Shown: one piece after another, positions 33,099 through 57,396 of the stretch
Numbering within the stretch: the first letter of the stretch is position 1
How the letters are laid out: the number at the start of each line of letters is the position of its first letter
Assembly (NCBI GenBank): GCA_030425705.1
Contig: JAUHZU010000001.1
Coordinates: forward strand, 62,001 to 126,000
Direction: 5' to 3'
DNA length: 64,000 nt
Source: Phycisphaerae bacterium
GTDB lineage: Bacteria > Planctomycetota > Phycisphaerae > Phycisphaerales > Phycisphaeraceae
The notes under the pieces: model-generated
What the model was told of the DNA's origin: nothing
The model's input: the letters and a program-made list of their open reading frames with translations, nothing else
Database searches by the model: none
Position numbers and translations under genes: made by a program

Positions 33099-35573
33099 TC
33101 AGAGCACCGAGACCGGGTCGACGTCGATGGCGGTGTGGTGGTCGCTGATGAGCAGGGACTGGTTGCGGAGGGCGGTCATGAGCTTCTGGATCGGCGGGGC
33201 GGAGGCGGCCTGGAGCAGGAGCTCGTAGCGGTGGTGGTCGGCGACGCGGGCGATGGCGCAGGGGTGCGGGCCGCGCAGGTGGACGCCCAGCCCTATCGAA
33301 TCGTTCGCGGCGCGGAGGTGCCCGGCCAGTTCGTGGGCGCGGCGCTGGGCGGCGGCATGATCGGTGTCGCGCAGGACGATCCGCGCCAGCCGGCCGACGG
33401 GCGGGAGCATCATCTCCCGGCGGATGGCGATCTCGTCGTGCGCGAAGCCGGCGTAGTCGTGGTGGGCCGCGCGCTGCACCGCGGGGTCCTCGGGCGCGAA
33501 GGTCTGCAGGACGACCCGGCCGACCTGCTCGCTGCGCCCGCTGCGGCCGGCGACCTGGGCGATGAGCTGGAACGTGCGTTCGCGCGCGCGGAAGTCCGGG
33601 AAGTTCAGCGCGGTGTCGGCGCTGACCACGCCGACCAGCCGCACGCCGGGGAAGTCCAGCCCCTTGGCGATCATCTGCGTGCCCAGGAGGATGTCGATCT
33701 CGCCCCGGCGGAAGCGGTCGAGGGTCTGCTGGTAGTCCTCGGCGTTCTTCATGGTGTCCGAGTCCATGCGCGCGATCACGGCCGAGGGGAACTTGTCGTT
33801 CAGCTCGTCCTCGACCTTCTGTGTGCCCAGGCCGAAGACCGTGGTCTTCTTGCCGCAGTCCGGGCACGCGGCGGGCAGGACCTGCTCGGCCGTGCAGTGG
33901 TGGCAGCGCACGACCCCGCCCAGGGGGAGCCGGCCGTCGCGGTGGTAGACCATGGATGCGTCGCAGTGGTCGCAGCACATCAGCCAGCCGCAGCGGTGGT
34001 CGGGACAGGCGATGTAGTTGGCGTAGCCCCGGCGGTTGAGCAGGACCATCGCCTGCGCATGCTGCTCGTCGATCGTCTGTTGAAGCCGCTGCTCCAGGCG
34101 CGCGGAGAGCAGGTGGATGCCCCGGCGGCGTCGGCGTTCCTCGATCAGGTCCACGATCTCCACGGTCGGCAGGCGCATCCCCGGCACGCGGTCGGGCAGG
34201 TGGAGGTAGCTGGCGGAGGAGCGAGGGGCGGGGACCGAGGATCGAGCGCCGGCGGCCGATACGGCGCTGGCTTCGCTCCTCGGTCCCCGCCCCTCAATCC
34301 TGTCGGCCACCGCGTTGTAGTAGCTTTCCAGCGACGGCGTCGCGCTGCCGAGCACAACGGGAACGCCCTCGAGCTGGCCGCGCTTGATGGCGACGTCGCG
34401 GGCGTGGTAGCGGGGGAGCTGGTCCTGCTTGTAGGAGCTGTCGTGCTCCTCATCGACCACGATGAGCGCGAGGTGGCGGACCGGGGCGAACACGGCCGAG
34501 CGGGCCCCGACGACGATGGTGGCCTTGCCCTCGTGGATGCGTCGCCACTGGGCGTGGCGCTGCGCGGCGGTGAGCCCGGAGTGCAGGACCGCGACGCGCT
34601 CCCCGCCGAAGCGCGCGAGGAACCGCCCGACGGTCTGGGGCGTCAGCGCGATCTCGGGGACCAGGACGATGGCGGCGGGGGCCGAGTGCGGCGCGGCCTT
34701 GGCTTCTTGGATTTCTTCTTCACTCAACCCCTCGGCCCCTGGGTCCCTTGGCCCCTCGCGCAGCGCCGCGATCGCGCGGAGGTAGACCTCGGTCTTGCCG
34801 CTGCCGGTGACGCCGTGCAGCAGGTGGACGCCGAAGCGATTGGCGTGCCGCCGGAGGTGGTCGACCGCAGCCCGCTGGGCCTCTCCGAGCGTGACGGGCG
34901 GGTCGTCTTCACTCACCTCGCGGGCGCGGAGGTCCAGCGTCGAGCGGACGGTGTCCTGGTGCTCGGCCAGCAGCAGCCCCTTGGCGATGAGCTGGGTGAC
35001 CGGGCCGCGGGTCTTCGCCCCGGCGAGGTCGGCGAGGGCGCGCGTATCGATCCAGCCGCCGTGCCCGCGGGCCGCGTCGAGCACCGCCTGCTGCAGCTTG
35101 GTCGGCCTGATCGGTTGGCCGTCGTGATCGACGGGCGGCGGGTCGGCGGGGCGGACGACCTGCCGGCGGGTGCTGCCCGTGCCGCGCGTGACGGCCGCGG
35201 GCAGCATCGCCCCGAACACCATCCCCAGCGGGCAGACGTAGTACGACGCGATCCAGCGGGCGAGCTCGACGAGCGTCGGCGGCAGCGACACGCCGCCGGG
35301 CGCGGGCCGCGTGATTGGTTTGATCTTCCTGGGGTCCAGCTCCGCCGCGTCGCGCAGGCGAACGACGTAGCCCGTCGCGCCGCGGTTGCCCCGGCCCAGC
35401 GGGACGACGACGCGCTGTCCCACGGCGAGTGGCTCGAGCTTCTTCGGTACGCGGTAGGTCAGCCCGGTCGACGACAGGTCGATGCCGCGCTCGATGGCGA
35501 CGTCGGCGAAGCGTTCGCCCGGCTGGGGCGTGTCGTCTTGCGTCGCGGGGTCTTGCGGGAACAGGCCGGGCAT
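33099..35573 (-). CDS. priA: Primosomal helicase PriA
   Basis: 824 residues (E. coli 732). The N-terminal 3'-end-binding domain is followed by Walker A GVTGSGKTEVYLRA, VDEEHDSSYKQD (DEEH box), GSATPSLESY, and a zinc-binding insert (CPDHRCGWLMCCDHC, then RCHHC and CPDCG). It restarts stalled replication forks. The extra length comes from two in-frame inserts in loops: about residues 273-298, between YLRAIAALRE and AAIVLVPEIALTP, and about 427-451, before SYLHLPDRVP. Both are coded by palindromic repeats. The start at 35573 is seven bases after a TACAAT on the minus strand. It ends 12 bases from the rtcB stop (convergent). Confidence 0.96.
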   Translation of the reverse strand: MPGLFPQDPATQDDTPQPGERFADVAIERGIDLSSTGLTYRVPKKLEPLAVGQRVVVPLGRGNRGATGYVVRLRDAAELDPRKIKPITRPAPGGVSLPPTLVELARWIASYYVCPLGMVFGAMLPAAVTRGTGSTRRQVVRPADPPPVDHDGQPIRPTKLQQAVLDAARGHGGWIDTRALADLAGAKTRGPVTQLIAKGLLLAEHQDTVRSTLDLRAREVSEDDPPVTLGEAQRAAVDHLRRHANRFGVHLLHGVTGSGKTEVYLRAIAALREGPRDPGAEGLSEEEIQEAKAAPHSAPAAIVLVPEIALTPQTVGRFLARFGGERVAVLHSGLTAAQRHAQWRRIHEGKATIVVGARSAVFAPVRHLALIVVDEEHDSSYKQDQLPRYHARDVAIKRGQLEGVPVVLGSATPSLESYYNAVADRIEGRGPRSEASAVSAAGARSSVPAPRSSASYLHLPDRVPGMRLPTVEIVDLIEERRRRRGIHLLSARLEQRLQQTIDEQHAQAMVLLNRRGYANYIACPDHRCGWLMCCDHCDASMVYHRDGRLPLGGVVRCHHCTAEQVLPAACPDCGKKTTVFGLGTQKVEDELNDKFPSAVIARMDSDTMKNAEDYQQTLDRFRRGEIDILLGTQMIAKGLDFPGVRLVGVVSADTALNFPDFRARERTFQLIAQVAGRSGRSEQVGRVVLQTFAPEDPAVQRAAHHDYAGFAHDEIAIRREMMLPPVGRLARIVLRDTDHAAAQRRAHELAGHLRAANDSIGLGVHLRGPHPCAIARVADHHRYELLLQAASAPPIQKLMTALRNQSLLISDHHTAIDVDPVSVL
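34223..34295 (-). repeat. In-frame palindromic element inside priA
   Basis: Perfect 19-base inverted repeats (34223-34241 and 34277-34295; arm begins GAGGGGCGGGGACCGAGG) flank a 35-base centre. On the priA strand it reads EGRGPRSEAS and onwards for about 25 residues not found in other PriA proteins. Confidence 0.85.
34676..34759 (-). repeat. Second in-frame insert in priA, related to the mutS element
   Basis: On the priA strand it encodes EGPRDPGAEGLSEEEIQEAK, close to KGPRGQGAEGISEEQQ in mutS and in the same reading phase. Only short remnants of opposing arms (GGGGCCGAG / CTCGGCCCC) remain. Confidence 0.65.
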
Positions 35574-35580
35574 GGCCGGG

Positions 35581-35586
35581 ATTGTA
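35581..35586 (-). promoter_or_regulatory. -10 hexamer TACAAT of priA, leaderless spacing
   Basis: On the minus strand TACAAT lies seven bases before the priA ATG; no Shine-Dalgarno sequence. Confidence 0.6.
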
Positions 35587-35609
35587 GACCGTGCGGTGCG
35601 CAACGCCCG

Positions 35610-36167: not shown

Positions 36168-39053
36168 ATGGCCCAGGCGACCGAGAAACCGACCCCCGCG
36201 GCGCAGCCGGTGCCCGCGTCCAAGCCGGGCAAGGGCGCGGACACGCCGGCGATGCGGCAGTACAAGCGCTTCAAGGCGCAGCACCCCGGGTGCGTGCTGT
36301 TCTTCCGCATGGGCGACTTCTACGAGATGTTCTTCGAGGACGCGGTGCTCGCGCACAAGACGCTGGGCGTGACGCTGACGCAGCGGACCGAGGGCGTGCC
36401 GATGGCCGGCGTGCCGTACCACGCGGTCGAGGGCTACCTCCGCCGGATGATCCAGGCGGGCCACCGGGTGGCGGTGTGCGAGCAGGTCGAGGACGCGAAG
36501 GACGCCAAGGGCGTGGTGAAGCGTGACGTGACGCGCGTCGTGACGCCGGGCACGCTGACCGACGAGTCGCTGCTGGACGAGGGCGAGGAGAACCCGCTGG
36601 CGGCGGTGGTGTTTCATGGGGAAGGGGCCAAGGGGCCGAAGGGCCAGGGGGCGAAGGGCAAGGCGGGGGACGCCGCGCCCGGCGGCTCGGAGAAGCAGGC
36701 CCCGGCTGCCGTGTCGATCGCGTGGGCGGAGCTGTCGACGGGGGCGTTCTACGTGGCGACGGTGCCGGAGGACCAGGCCGCCGACGAGCTGGCACGGGTC
36801 GCGCCGCGGGAGCTGATCTACTGCGAGACGGCGACGGGCGAGCCGCCGCCCCGGCTGGCGCGGCTGGCGCAGGCGCTGGGCTGCGCGACGACGGGCCGGC
36901 CCGGCTGGCAATTCCGGCTGGGCGAGGCGCAGGAGGCGCTGCGTCGGCAGTACCGCGTCGCGCAGCTCGGCGGGTTCGGGTTCGCGGACGACGACCCGGC
37001 GCTCATGGCCGCGGGCGGCATCGTGCACTACCTGCTCGAGACGCAACGCGCCGACGCGGACGGCCGGCTGGCGCACCTCCGCCCGCCGCGCCGGTTCGAG
37101 CGCACCGCGCACCTGGTCATCGACCAGGCGTCGCTGCACGCGCTGGAGGTCGACAAGACCCTGCGCAGCGGGCAGGTGCAGGGCTCGCTGCTGGGCGTGT
37201 TCCGCGGCAAGACCGGGCCGGTCACCGCGATGGGCAAGCGTCGGCTGCGGCAGTGGCTGTGCTACCCGCTGGCGGACCGGGAGGCGATCGCGCAGCGGCA
37301 GCGCGTCGTCGGCGCGATGGTTGCGGACGAGCGGTTCCGGCAGGAGCTGCGCGACGCGGCGGACCGGGTCCACGACATCGAGCGGATCACCGCCCGGCTC
37401 GCGGTCGGCCGGGCCACGCCGCGGGACCTGGTCGCGCTTGGGCGCAGCGTCGCGCAGGTGCGTGCACTGCACGCGGTGCTCGAGGGCCGGCCCAGCGAGC
37501 GGGCGTACCTGGACCGCGTGGCCGTGTTGCTTTGCCCATTGGAATCGCTGGGCGGGTCGATCAACGACGCGTGTATCGAGTCGCCGCCGGCCCACCTGCG
37601 CGAAGGCGGGCTGATCCGCGACGGCGTCGATAAGGAGCTGGACGCGCAACGCTCGCTGCAGCGCGACAGCCACGCCTGGCTGGCCGAGTACCAGGCGAAG
37701 CTCTGCGAGCAGTCGGGCATCCCGTCGCTGAAGGTCGGCTACAACAAGGTCTTCGGGTACTACCTCGAGGTCACCGCCGCGAACAAGCAGAAGGCCCAGG
37801 ACTACCTGGACACGACGCCCGACGGCGGGGGCTGGGCGCGGAAGCAGACGCTGAAGAACGCCGAGCGGTACGTGACGCCGGAGCTGAAGGAATTCGAGGG
37901 CAAGGTGCTGAGCGCCGAGGGGCGGGCGGTCGCGCGGGAGCAGACGCTGTTCGCGGGGCTGTGCTCCGAGGCGCAGGCGGTGATGGACGACCTGCACGGC
38001 TTCGCGGAGGTCGTGTCCGAGCTGGACGTGCTGGGCGCGTTCGCGGAGCGGGCGGTGCGCTCGCGTTACGCCTGCCCGACGATCGTCGAGGAGCCGGTGC
38101 TGGAGGTCGAGGCCGGCCGACACCCCGTCCTCGACGAATTGCTGGGAGACCGGTTCGTGCCTAACGACGTCGCGCTGGGGAAGGGGCCGAGGGGCCAAGG
38201 GGCCGAGGGGATAAGTGAGGAACAACAAGACGGGATCGATGCGCAGCACCCGGCCCCCGGGCCCCTTGGCCCCTCGGCCCCTTCCGCCTCGCTCGCCCTC
38301 ATCACCGGGCCGAACATGGCGGGCAAGTCGACATACATCCGCCAGACGGCGCTGATCGTGCTGCTCGCGCACACCGGCTCGTTCGTCCCCGCCGACCGCG
38401 CGGTGGTCGGGCTGACCGACCGGATCTTCACACGCGTCGGCGCGAACGACGAGCTGCACGCCGGCCAATCCACGTTCATGGTCGAGATGACAGAGACGGC
38501 CAACATCTGCCACCACGCGACGGACCGGTCGCTGGTCATCCTCGACGAGATCGGCCGGGGCACGAGCACGCTCGACGGCCTGTCGCTGGCGTGGGCCATC
38601 GCTGAGCACCTGGCGGAGAAGGGCCCGCGCACGCTCTTCGCGACGCACTACCACGAGATCACGACCCTCGCCGACCGGTACGAGAGCGTGACGAACCTCA
38701 GCGTGACCGTGCGCGAGTGGCAGGACGAGATCGTGTTCCTCCACCGCATCGCGCCGGGCGCGACCGACCGCAGCTACGGCATCCACGTCGCCAAGATCGC
38801 CGGCCTCCCCCCGGCCGTCGTCGAACGCGCCAACCAGCTCCTCGCCGAGCTCGCGGTCAACCACGCCGGCACGGGCACCCCCGCGCCGAGCCCCGCCCAT
38901 GCCGCACCGGCCCCGCCCCAGCTCTCGCTGTTCACCGAGTACGTCGACCACCCCGCCCTCGCCGAGTTGAAGGCCCTGGACCTGGACACGTTGTCCCCGA
39001 TGCAGGCCTTCGACACGCTCCGCCGGCTACGCGGGCTCACCGATGGGGCCTGA
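36168..39053 (+). CDS. mutS: DNA mismatch repair protein MutS
   Basis: 961 residues (usual about 850). Mismatch-binding motif GDFYEMFFEDA in domain I, then connector, lever, clamp and ATPase domains. Walker A is GPNMAGKSTYIRQ (near residue 714), followed by VGLTDRIFTRVGANDEL, the DEIGRGTSTLDG Walker B and ATHYHE. It recognises mismatches and recruits MutL. The extra length is due to a 30-residue N-terminal extension and two in-frame inserts at about residues 149-177 and 671-706, the latter a 105-bp perfect-armed palindrome placed directly before the Walker A strand. The start at 36168 is set by the family N terminus and a -10 six bases upstream. Confidence 0.97.
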   Translation: MAQATEKPTPAAQPVPASKPGKGADTPAMRQYKRFKAQHPGCVLFFRMGDFYEMFFEDAVLAHKTLGVTLTQRTEGVPMAGVPYHAVEGYLRRMIQAGHRVAVCEQVEDAKDAKGVVKRDVTRVVTPGTLTDESLLDEGEENPLAAVVFHGEGAKGPKGQGAKGKAGDAAPGGSEKQAPAAVSIAWAELSTGAFYVATVPEDQAADELARVAPRELIYCETATGEPPPRLARLAQALGCATTGRPGWQFRLGEAQEALRRQYRVAQLGGFGFADDDPALMAAGGIVHYLLETQRADADGRLAHLRPPRRFERTAHLVIDQASLHALEVDKTLRSGQVQGSLLGVFRGKTGPVTAMGKRRLRQWLCYPLADREAIAQRQRVVGAMVADERFRQELRDAADRVHDIERITARLAVGRATPRDLVALGRSVAQVRALHAVLEGRPSERAYLDRVAVLLCPLESLGGSINDACIESPPAHLREGGLIRDGVDKELDAQRSLQRDSHAWLAEYQAKLCEQSGIPSLKVGYNKVFGYYLEVTAANKQKAQDYLDTTPDGGGWARKQTLKNAERYVTPELKEFEGKVLSAEGRAVAREQTLFAGLCSEAQAVMDDLHGFAEVVSELDVLGAFAERAVRSRYACPTIVEEPVLEVEAGRHPVLDELLGDRFVPNDVALGKGPRGQGAEGISEEQQDGIDAQHPAPGPLGPSAPSASLALITGPNMAGKSTYIRQTALIVLLAHTGSFVPADRAVVGLTDRIFTRVGANDELHAGQSTFMVEMTETANICHHATDRSLVILDEIGRGTSTLDGLSLAWAIAEHLAEKGPRTLFATHYHEITTLADRYESVTNLSVTVREWQDEIVFLHRIAPGATDRSYGIHVAKIAGLPPAVVERANQLLAELAVNHAGTGTPAPSPAHAAPAPPQLSLFTEYVDHPALAELKALDLDTLSPMQAFDTLRRLRGLTDGA
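36616..36700 (+). repeat. In-frame insert in mutS, arm-like G-rich repeat
   Basis: Encodes GEGAKGPKGQGAKGKAGDAA between NPLAAVVFH and VSIAWAELSTG. Its DNA repeats GGGGCCAAGGGGCCGAAGGGCC, like one arm of the downstream palindrome, but no opposing arm is left. Confidence 0.6.
38180..38284 (+). repeat. 105-bp in-frame palindromic element inside mutS
   Basis: Perfect 25-base inverted repeats at 38180-38204 and 38260-38284 (arm begins GAAGGGGCCGAGGGGCCAAG) flank a 55-base centre. The total is exactly 35 codons, encoding residues 671-706 of MutS, a stretch absent from other MutS proteins. Confidence 0.92.
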
Positions 39054-41323: not shown

Positions 41324-41347
41324 CACGATGACCCCGCACCAGGATTC

Positions 41348-41417
41348 AGCCGCCGCGTCACACGCGGCGGGAGTACGCTTGTCTAAACTCCATCCCGCCG
41401 CGTGTGACGCGGCGGCT
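41348..41417. repeat. REPIN-like palindromic element, copy 1
   Basis: Two 23-base arms in inverted orientation (41348-41370, 41395-41417), each itself a hairpin (CCGCCGCGT-CAC-ACGCGGCGG), with a 24-base spacer. The arms are identical in all three copies of the window; the spacers are not. Confidence 0.92.
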
Positions 41418-41449
41418 GATCACACCGCACAGGACACCGTCACAGCGGG

Positions 41450-44993: not shown

Positions 44994-45063
44994 AGCCGCC
45001 GCGTCACACGCGGCGGTAGCCCGCCTGGCCCGCACAGCTCCCGCCGCGTGTGACGCGGCGGCT
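44994..45063. repeat. REPIN-like palindromic element, copy 2
   Basis: Arms at 44994-45016 and 45041-45063, identical to copy 1, with a 24-base spacer of different sequence. It lies between the convergent hsp20 and HAD genes. Confidence 0.92.
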
Positions 45064-57061: not shown

Positions 57062-57310
57062 GTGCTCTGGGCTGTTGGATTCTCGATCGCCGTGCTGGTT
57101 CTCCTGGGTGTTGTGCTGGCACGCGCCGCGCGACCTGCCAAGGCCCGTGCCGCGGTGCGCGACGCGCGGTGCCCGGTCTGTGGCGGGCTGGGGTTCCGGC
57201 AAGGCGCGTTGACGCGGGTCACGGCCGAGGGGACCGCGATGTGTACCGCCAGGTGCCAGCTCTGCGGCGAGCGGGTACGCTTTGACCACCGAGGAAACCC
57301 CCTGGTTTAG
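57062..57310 (+). CDS. Small membrane protein with zinc ribbon
   Basis: 82 residues, GTG start. One transmembrane helix (residues about 4-22, VGFSIAVLVLLGVVLARAA), then a treble-clef-like C-x2-C...C-x2-C pair (CPVCGGLGF and CQLCGERVRF). Function unknown. Its stop codon TAG overlaps the first two bases of REPIN copy 3, so the repeat inserted at, or supplied, the end of the gene. Confidence 0.6.
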   Translation: MLWAVGFSIAVLVLLGVVLARAARPAKARAAVRDARCPVCGGLGFRQGALTRVTAEGTAMCTARCQLCGERVRFDHRGNPLV

Positions 57311-57377
57311 CCGCCGCGTCACACGCGGCGGGGTCACGCCAAGACTAAAAATGCCCGCCGCGTGTGACGCGGCGGCT
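57309..57377. repeat. REPIN-like palindromic element, copy 3
   Basis: Arms at 57309-57331 and 57355-57377, identical to the other copies; 23-base spacer. Here the inverted repeat extends outward by three more bases (TTT/AAA). Confidence 0.92.
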
Positions 57378-57396
57378 AAAAAGGGAGCGGACTGCC

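Follow-up and report, generated by a model that had tools for sequence, protein, structure and literature searches.

The mutS gene of this Phycisphaerae genome raises the question of what a palindrome lying in frame just ahead of the Walker A motif of a DNA-repair protein is, and how it came to be there. The gene was located at positions 36168..39053 on the forward strand of the window (the whole 64-kb stretch of DNA that was analysed), where the NCBIfam models NF003810 and TIGR01070 both scored over cut-off, and 33 distinct PDB sequences matched at E ≤ 1e-50. It has two insert sites, referred to below as the C-site and the N-site.

Position and anatomy of the mutS inserts

A sequence-only reading had described the C-site element as 105 nt in total, with perfect 25-nt arms (38180-38204 and 38260-38284) around a 55-nt centre, and this anatomy was confirmed. 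The best ungapped palindrome found by script spans 38179..38285 on the forward strand, with 32-nt arms that are 94% paired and a 43-nt centre; with more mismatches allowed, the arms reach 39 nt (87% paired). The 5′ arm (38179..38210) is G-rich and consists of about four 8-nt units, AGGGGCCR, detected by script as copies 8 nt apart, while the 3′ arm (38254..38285) is its C-rich complement. The centre (38211..38253) bears the AGTG...CGCARCAC edges of its repeat family. The insert ranks first of 27 inverted pairs detected in the window at a distance of up to 200, and out-folds all 200 of 200 shuffles (z = -6.78 as DNA and -7.14 as RNA).

The in-frame placement before Walker A was likewise borne out, by the open reading frame throughout the insert, by NF003810, and by solved MutS chains. 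These chains, which have no extra residues at this position, align up to query residue 670-671 and then again from 704. The insert falls between chain residues 603 and 604, a numbering that we take to be that of E. coli MutS, just before the Walker A strand; the Walker A codons (TGPNMAGKST, read from the sequence) lie at 38304..38333 on the same strand. The length of 105 nt had been equated with exactly 35 codons, which did not stand: the linker comprises 60 residues in the source genome (G000) versus 30 in its congeners G002 and G003, a net gain of 30 codons. The short linkers of these close relatives show the insert to be lineage-specific, rather than conserved at the same site in all distant relatives. 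An ancestral MutS feature was not supported, as linkers are short in both congeners and outgroups, and an intein or intron was ruled out by the small net size, the palindromic structure, and the continuing frame. Searches for a known RNA family returned only microRNA hairpin models of Rfam, all below their gathering scores, and no match was found in a phage or plasmid collection.

The N-site (36617..36650, forward strand) holds an in-frame half copy of the same repeat, GGGGCCRA, and a full palindrome is present there in the sister species (G001). Elsewhere in the window, a further palindrome occurs in three copies (41346-41419, 44994-45063, and 57306-57380), its arms being 27 nt long and nearly perfect around AGCCGCCGCGTCACACGCGGCGG.

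Dispersal of the repeat in the source genome and its sister species

Searches with the mutS arm located the repeat at at least 14 places in its own genome, some of them partial (E < 0.001, with 40 of 52 candidates scored). Eight copies lie in frame within genes, namely mutS (twice), priA, queG, ruvB, putA, mfd, and miaB, with those in priA, putA, mfd, and miaB being partial; six others read as outside genes. Gene names are those of the best NCBIfam matches, and ORFs cut at locus ends score below the curated cut-off. The exact arm is present in three of the 61 genomes, with 12 matches in G000, nine in G001, and one in G013. The nine places in the sister species are within priA, mutS, valS, tgt, rarA, and miaA (the last being out of frame in the assembly, with two shifts), at the 3′ end of cutC, and at two intergenic positions. 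In the window, priA (33099..35603, reverse strand; TIGR00595, 552.8 bits versus a cut-off of 230.35) carries the partial copy in frame at its site A (34676..34766, reverse strand), found in the own-genome search. A different, heptad-type palindrome with GGGACCGAG arms, detected by script, lies in frame at site B (34217..34301, reverse strand). The earlier suggestion of a selfish element resembling those of Rickettsia was upheld in part: the repeat is dispersed and in frame in several genes, and the mutS insert is lineage-specific and placed at a gap in the chain alignments, but no autonomous partner was found.

The AGTG...CGCARCACYYGG centre edges were matched in eight of 26 copies of the repeat family, the mutS copy included, and the remaining copies gave no pattern match. 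Since the same edges occur in copies within unrelated genes, arm and centre appear to have moved together. The GCARCAC edge lies 3′ on the coding strand in all seven pattern-matching coding copies (mutS, queG, ruvB, miaA, priA, valS), a uniform orientation that perhaps reflects selection for a hydrophilic reading. As judged by eye, the intergenic copies L024, L025, L028, and L029 end a few bases from TAnnnT motifs closely 5′ of an ATG, placed as if beside promoters of leaderless genes.

The arm search yielded 12 genes across the two sister species, ten of which belong to DNA repair and replication (mutS, priA, ruvB, mfd, rarA) or to tRNA function (queG, miaB, miaA, valS, tgt). With a background share of these classes of 12%, which is our assumption, the chance of such a bias is about 3e-8, a value that serves as a guide only, the classes having been picked after looking. 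The bias may reflect tolerance of the inserts. In species other than these two sisters, palindromes also lie in metabolic genes, namely purL, nadE, and lipB, as described below.

Reuse of the mutS site and of other sites with changing units

Of the 61 genomes, 60 yielded a mutS gene, and 58 linkers were parsed; the two missed by the parser (G024 and G059) are short on reading. Repeat inserts occupy the mutS site in 11 of the 35 rows of the window's family, versus none of the 23 outside it, with seven of them being strict palindromes and four assigned by eye. The claim that the insert is absent from the family is correct for the congeners G002 and G003, but other family genomes carry other repeat inserts at this site. 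The strict periodic palindromes are built of GGGGCCRA in G000, AGTGAAC in G001, TCGGGTA in G010, GTGACGA in G013, GGGGTCT in G018 and G032, and GAGTCCA in G031, and those counted by eye are degenerate in G012, G026, and G027, and composite in G025. In the G025 linker (L111), reading by eye showed a heptad array and a 12-nt microsatellite array in addition to a GTAG-type repeat, all in frame. Weak, non-periodic inverted repeats in the non-family linkers of G057, G039, and G056 (p 0.01-0.045) were not counted as inserts. On a MutS tree built without the linker by a quick method, with 20 of 55 inner branches open, the insert label needs 10 changes, no fewer than expected by chance (mean of 10.3 for shuffled labels), and at least five changes are forced by starred branches. 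The mutS site is a hotspot at which small DNA repeats, themselves probably selfish, have probably landed again and again, since some related bacteria, including the sister species and members of other genera, carry differently worded palindromes there.

The peptide encoded by the arms varies between genera. An acidic EE is encoded in the centre of seven of the 11 mutS inserts, compared with three of 24 other family linkers and two of 23 linkers outside the family, which may mean that a hydrophilic loop is selected for, or that the centre is older than the arms. A long-arm scan across many genomes returned 66 stretches, 57 of them without an inverted repeat within 200 nt. The scan also revealed a full palindrome at the same mutS site in an uncultured Algisphaera (MutS 62% identical), and a long-arm stretch in frame in dnaE of Phycisphaerales 7-NCT_044. 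The same 8-nt unit was seen in tandem in unrelated phyla (L190, L191, L196, L198, L226, L230, L231, and others), mostly without an inverted repeat within 200 nt.

Some units are nearly private to one genome. In G031, whose mutS unit is GAGTCCR, GAGTCCRGAGTCCRGAGTC gave 63 overlapping matches at 15 places, compared with two in G041 and zero across the remaining 59 genomes; GGGGTCTGGGGTCTGGGG occurs in eight of the 61 genomes. Four further G031 loci comprise three with the palindrome in frame (tgt, dnaG, purL) and one near a gene start. Of four further loci in G018, two are in nadE and lipB, one precedes a gene start, and one lacks a periodic palindrome; no periodic palindrome was found at four G019 loci with a GGGGTCT array. 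In priA, palindromes of four different units occupy site A (GGGGCCRA in both G000 and G001, and others in G013, G010, and G029), and palindromes of three units occupy site B (G000, G001, and G013).

The sister species G000 and G001 share about 77-92% protein identity in MutS, PriA, RuvB, and PNPase, and carry different palindromes at a shared site in mutS (C-site), priA (site B), and mfd. Both have related arms (AGYGGCCN) in queG, where the end of the centre is common and the arm unit differs. In miaA, G001 has the palindrome of 8-nt units where G000, as seen by eye, shows an array of heptads with a different unit; the script found no palindrome in miaA of G000. Both sisters have copies of a common repeat family in ruvB and putA, at the N-site of mutS, and at site A of priA; inserts in valS, tgt, and rarA and at site C of priA occur in G001 but not in G000. 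At the miaB and putA sites of G002, a short fragment of that genome's own palindrome, AGCCGCGACGCTACGCGTCGC, was discerned by eye.

Among 45 distinct periodic palindromes, which are not independent as many share units, the 5′ arm has G over C in 41, the reverse in three, and a tie in one. The period is 7 nt in 29 and 8 nt in 16, and the median arm and centre measure 29 nt (4.1 units) and 31 nt. As a control, PNPase genes showed a periodic palindrome in none of 30, with ruvB showing one in two of 30 and priA in at least four of 30, a lower bound, since the detector missed copies read directly (site A in G000 and G001, site C in G001). Over 711 kb around mutS in 40 genomes, tandem-armed genic palindromes were found only in mutS or priA, after five weak coding matches lacking a tandem array (G029, G054, G007, G055, G041) had been excluded by eye as chance, and G034 (L102) left unassigned. 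Samples of 400 kb gave 14 periodic palindromes in G001 and 10 in G013, compared with none in one shuffle of each; at least three of the matches look like chance, and L129, L133, and L158:3682 were set aside by eye. The clearly genic cases in these samples were dus and, twice, an ORF whose acetyltransferase matches stay below threshold, with most others reading as intergenic or at gene ends.

Origin of the inserts and their relation to known repeats

The mutS insert is likely to be a copy of a dispersed, non-autonomous convergent-repeat palindrome that turns over at tolerant protein loops. Such an element would consist of two facing arms, each made up of some four 7- or 8-nt units in tandem, usually with the G-rich arm first, around a centre of about 10-100 nt. 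We infer that copies spread within a genome, and that genic copies would persist where the frame is kept and the protein tolerates an extra hydrophilic loop, the added peptide being presumably neutral; the MutS stretch before Walker A would be one such loop. Over time, a loop might lose its copy, exchange it for a different one, or keep it with arms converted to another unit, and the sister species would thereby come to differ in the palindrome at one site. Reuse with different wording would need either repeated insertion at a few tolerant loops or in-place rewriting of the arms: the queG case speaks for rewriting, and the valS and tgt cases for insertion. Site reuse could also represent a single old insert with rewritten arms, and the shared centre end in queG, together with the enrichment of EE in the mutS inserts, suggests that the centre is possibly older than the arms. 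No target-site duplication was visible at valS, tgt, or rarA, where the flanks have diverged and could hide a short duplication. No full-length parent with the same ends was seen in about 2 kb around 16 places in the source genome.

How the copies would have moved is a separate matter. Mobilization in trans by a REP-associated tyrosine transposase (RAYT, Y1_Tnp), which would make the insert a REP-type element, seems rather doubtful. Matches to Y1_Tnp occur in 49 of the 61 genomes, including all 11 with a mutS insert, but also in 38 of the 50 without one. The GTAG-type repeat at the G025 mutS site was matched by eye to the repeat beside the RAYT of the source genome. RAYTs do land in genes here, as valS of G001 contains an entire RAYT in frame, with a GGGGCCRA palindrome about 1.2 kb off in the same gene. 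On the other side, the mutS element has ends GGAAGGGG and CCCCTTCC, lacking a GTAG or CGTC tag, and the single Y1_Tnp match of the source genome is flanked by an unrelated GTAGGGTGGG palindrome; a RAYT as partner of the mutS element is unsupported by position. By coordinates, the listed Y1_Tnp places do not adjoin the host's arm repeats in four of five cases in G031, two of three in G018, and three of three in G001. The Y1_Tnp match of the source genome (L036, G000:C3:47800-48153) lies between GTAGGGTGGGTGGAGCGAG...TACCCACC repeats. The valS gene of G001 (L377:787-4728) is a 1314-residue ORF, in which the complete RAYT spans residues 492-626 (NCBIfam NF047646, 80.7 bits, cut-off 80), bounded at both ends by peptides that are presumably REP-encoded. 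The palindrome lies near the N-terminus, and G000 has neither palindrome nor RAYT at these sites.

A more speculative, and in our judgement improbable, proposal is that a sequence-independent process makes and rewrites the palindromes. A site would then inherit its architecture (two convergent arrays of about four 7- or 8-nt units and a kept centre), the arm wording would be overwritten by the genome's common unit, and fixed loops of DNA-repair and tRNA proteins would serve as long-term addresses. If true, the rewriting process would be a copying or concerted-evolution mechanism; to our knowledge, no such mechanism has been described for Rickettsia palindromic elements (RPEs) or REPs.

An origin in place, in which slippage makes tandem 7- or 8-nt repeats in a tolerant linker, template switching at a stalled fork inverts them, and nothing moves, is unlikely. 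It would accommodate the use of different units by the sister species at one site, the miaA heptad array of G000 where G001 has a palindrome, and the predominance of long-arm stretches that lack a nearby inverted repeat (57 of 66). Against it stand the match of the mutS unit to repeats that recur at other places in the same genome and are nearly confined to it, and the centre edges common to copies in unrelated genes. Very improbable is a functional insert under selection, whether a hairpin or G-quadruplex regulating expression or a loop tuning repair (a mutator advantage), which the predominance of repair, replication, and tRNA genes (10 of 12 in the two sisters), the G-rich first arm of 41 of 45 palindromes, and EE in seven of 11 mutS centres would suit, but which the absence of an insert from G002, G003, and 24 of 35 family genomes, the change of the arm-encoded peptide between genera, a gene bias that may reflect tolerance, and the additional hits in the metabolic genes purL, nadE, and lipB in other species all oppose.

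RPEs are dispersed palindromes of about 100 bp that lie in frame in protein genes and are tolerated as added peptide. The mutS element is likewise a dispersed palindrome in frame within protein genes, and on the best reading, by analogy, it would work like an RPE. The two, compared by description, differ in that the element described here has tandem 7- or 8-nt arm units, is worded differently in sister species at one site, and occurs in another phylum. Small dispersed repeats of cyanobacteria, as treated by Elhai in 2008, are reportedly very small mobile repeats linked to heptamer repeats.

RPEs are also mentioned in the accessible text of a study of intragenic REPs (PMC3733652). According to that text, many of the GTAG/CGTC REPs that lie within genes are in those for replication and repair, tRNA synthetases, and tRNA pseudouridine synthases, the recB genes of two Xanthomonas species hold different REPs at nearly one position, and a mutator role for REPs in repair genes has already been proposed (PMC3733652); the words MutS and RuvB are absent from its main text. 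The repeats described here thus resemble REPs in being intragenic, in favouring repair and tRNA genes, and in differing at one site, whereas the mutS element lacks the GTAG/CGTC end tag, its arms are periodic, and no RAYT belonging to its repeat lies next to it. Heptamer repeats of Xanthomonas and Nostoc consist mostly of four 7-nt G-rich units and are dispersed, with convergent inverted pairs in 70 and 75 cases in two Xanthomonas (PMC4692102, as far as its accessible text goes). In the corresponding text for Geobacter metallireducens, four-heptamer elements occur also within genes (PMC2700814), and both sources treat such repeats as G-quadruplex or regulatory elements. Two inverted arrays of about four 7- or 8-nt units, G-rich arm first and dispersed, were found here as well; the main unit here is 8 nt, however, and the accessible text of PMC4692102 and PMC2700814 describes no recurrent in-frame site.

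Judged by titles, no earlier description of such inserts in mutS or Phycisphaera was found. The kind of element is already known; new are the host group, the periodic palindrome class, and how widely sites are reused while the units change. In-frame palindromic inserts, as in Rickettsia and among REPs, are extended to Phycisphaerales by palindromes of another make, and the published bias towards DNA-repair and tRNA genes is repeated with a different repeat class. Comparison of these genomes allows insertions, losses, and replacements at one codon-scale site to be traced across genera, and whether such inserts tune repair or are merely tolerated becomes directly testable in MutS.
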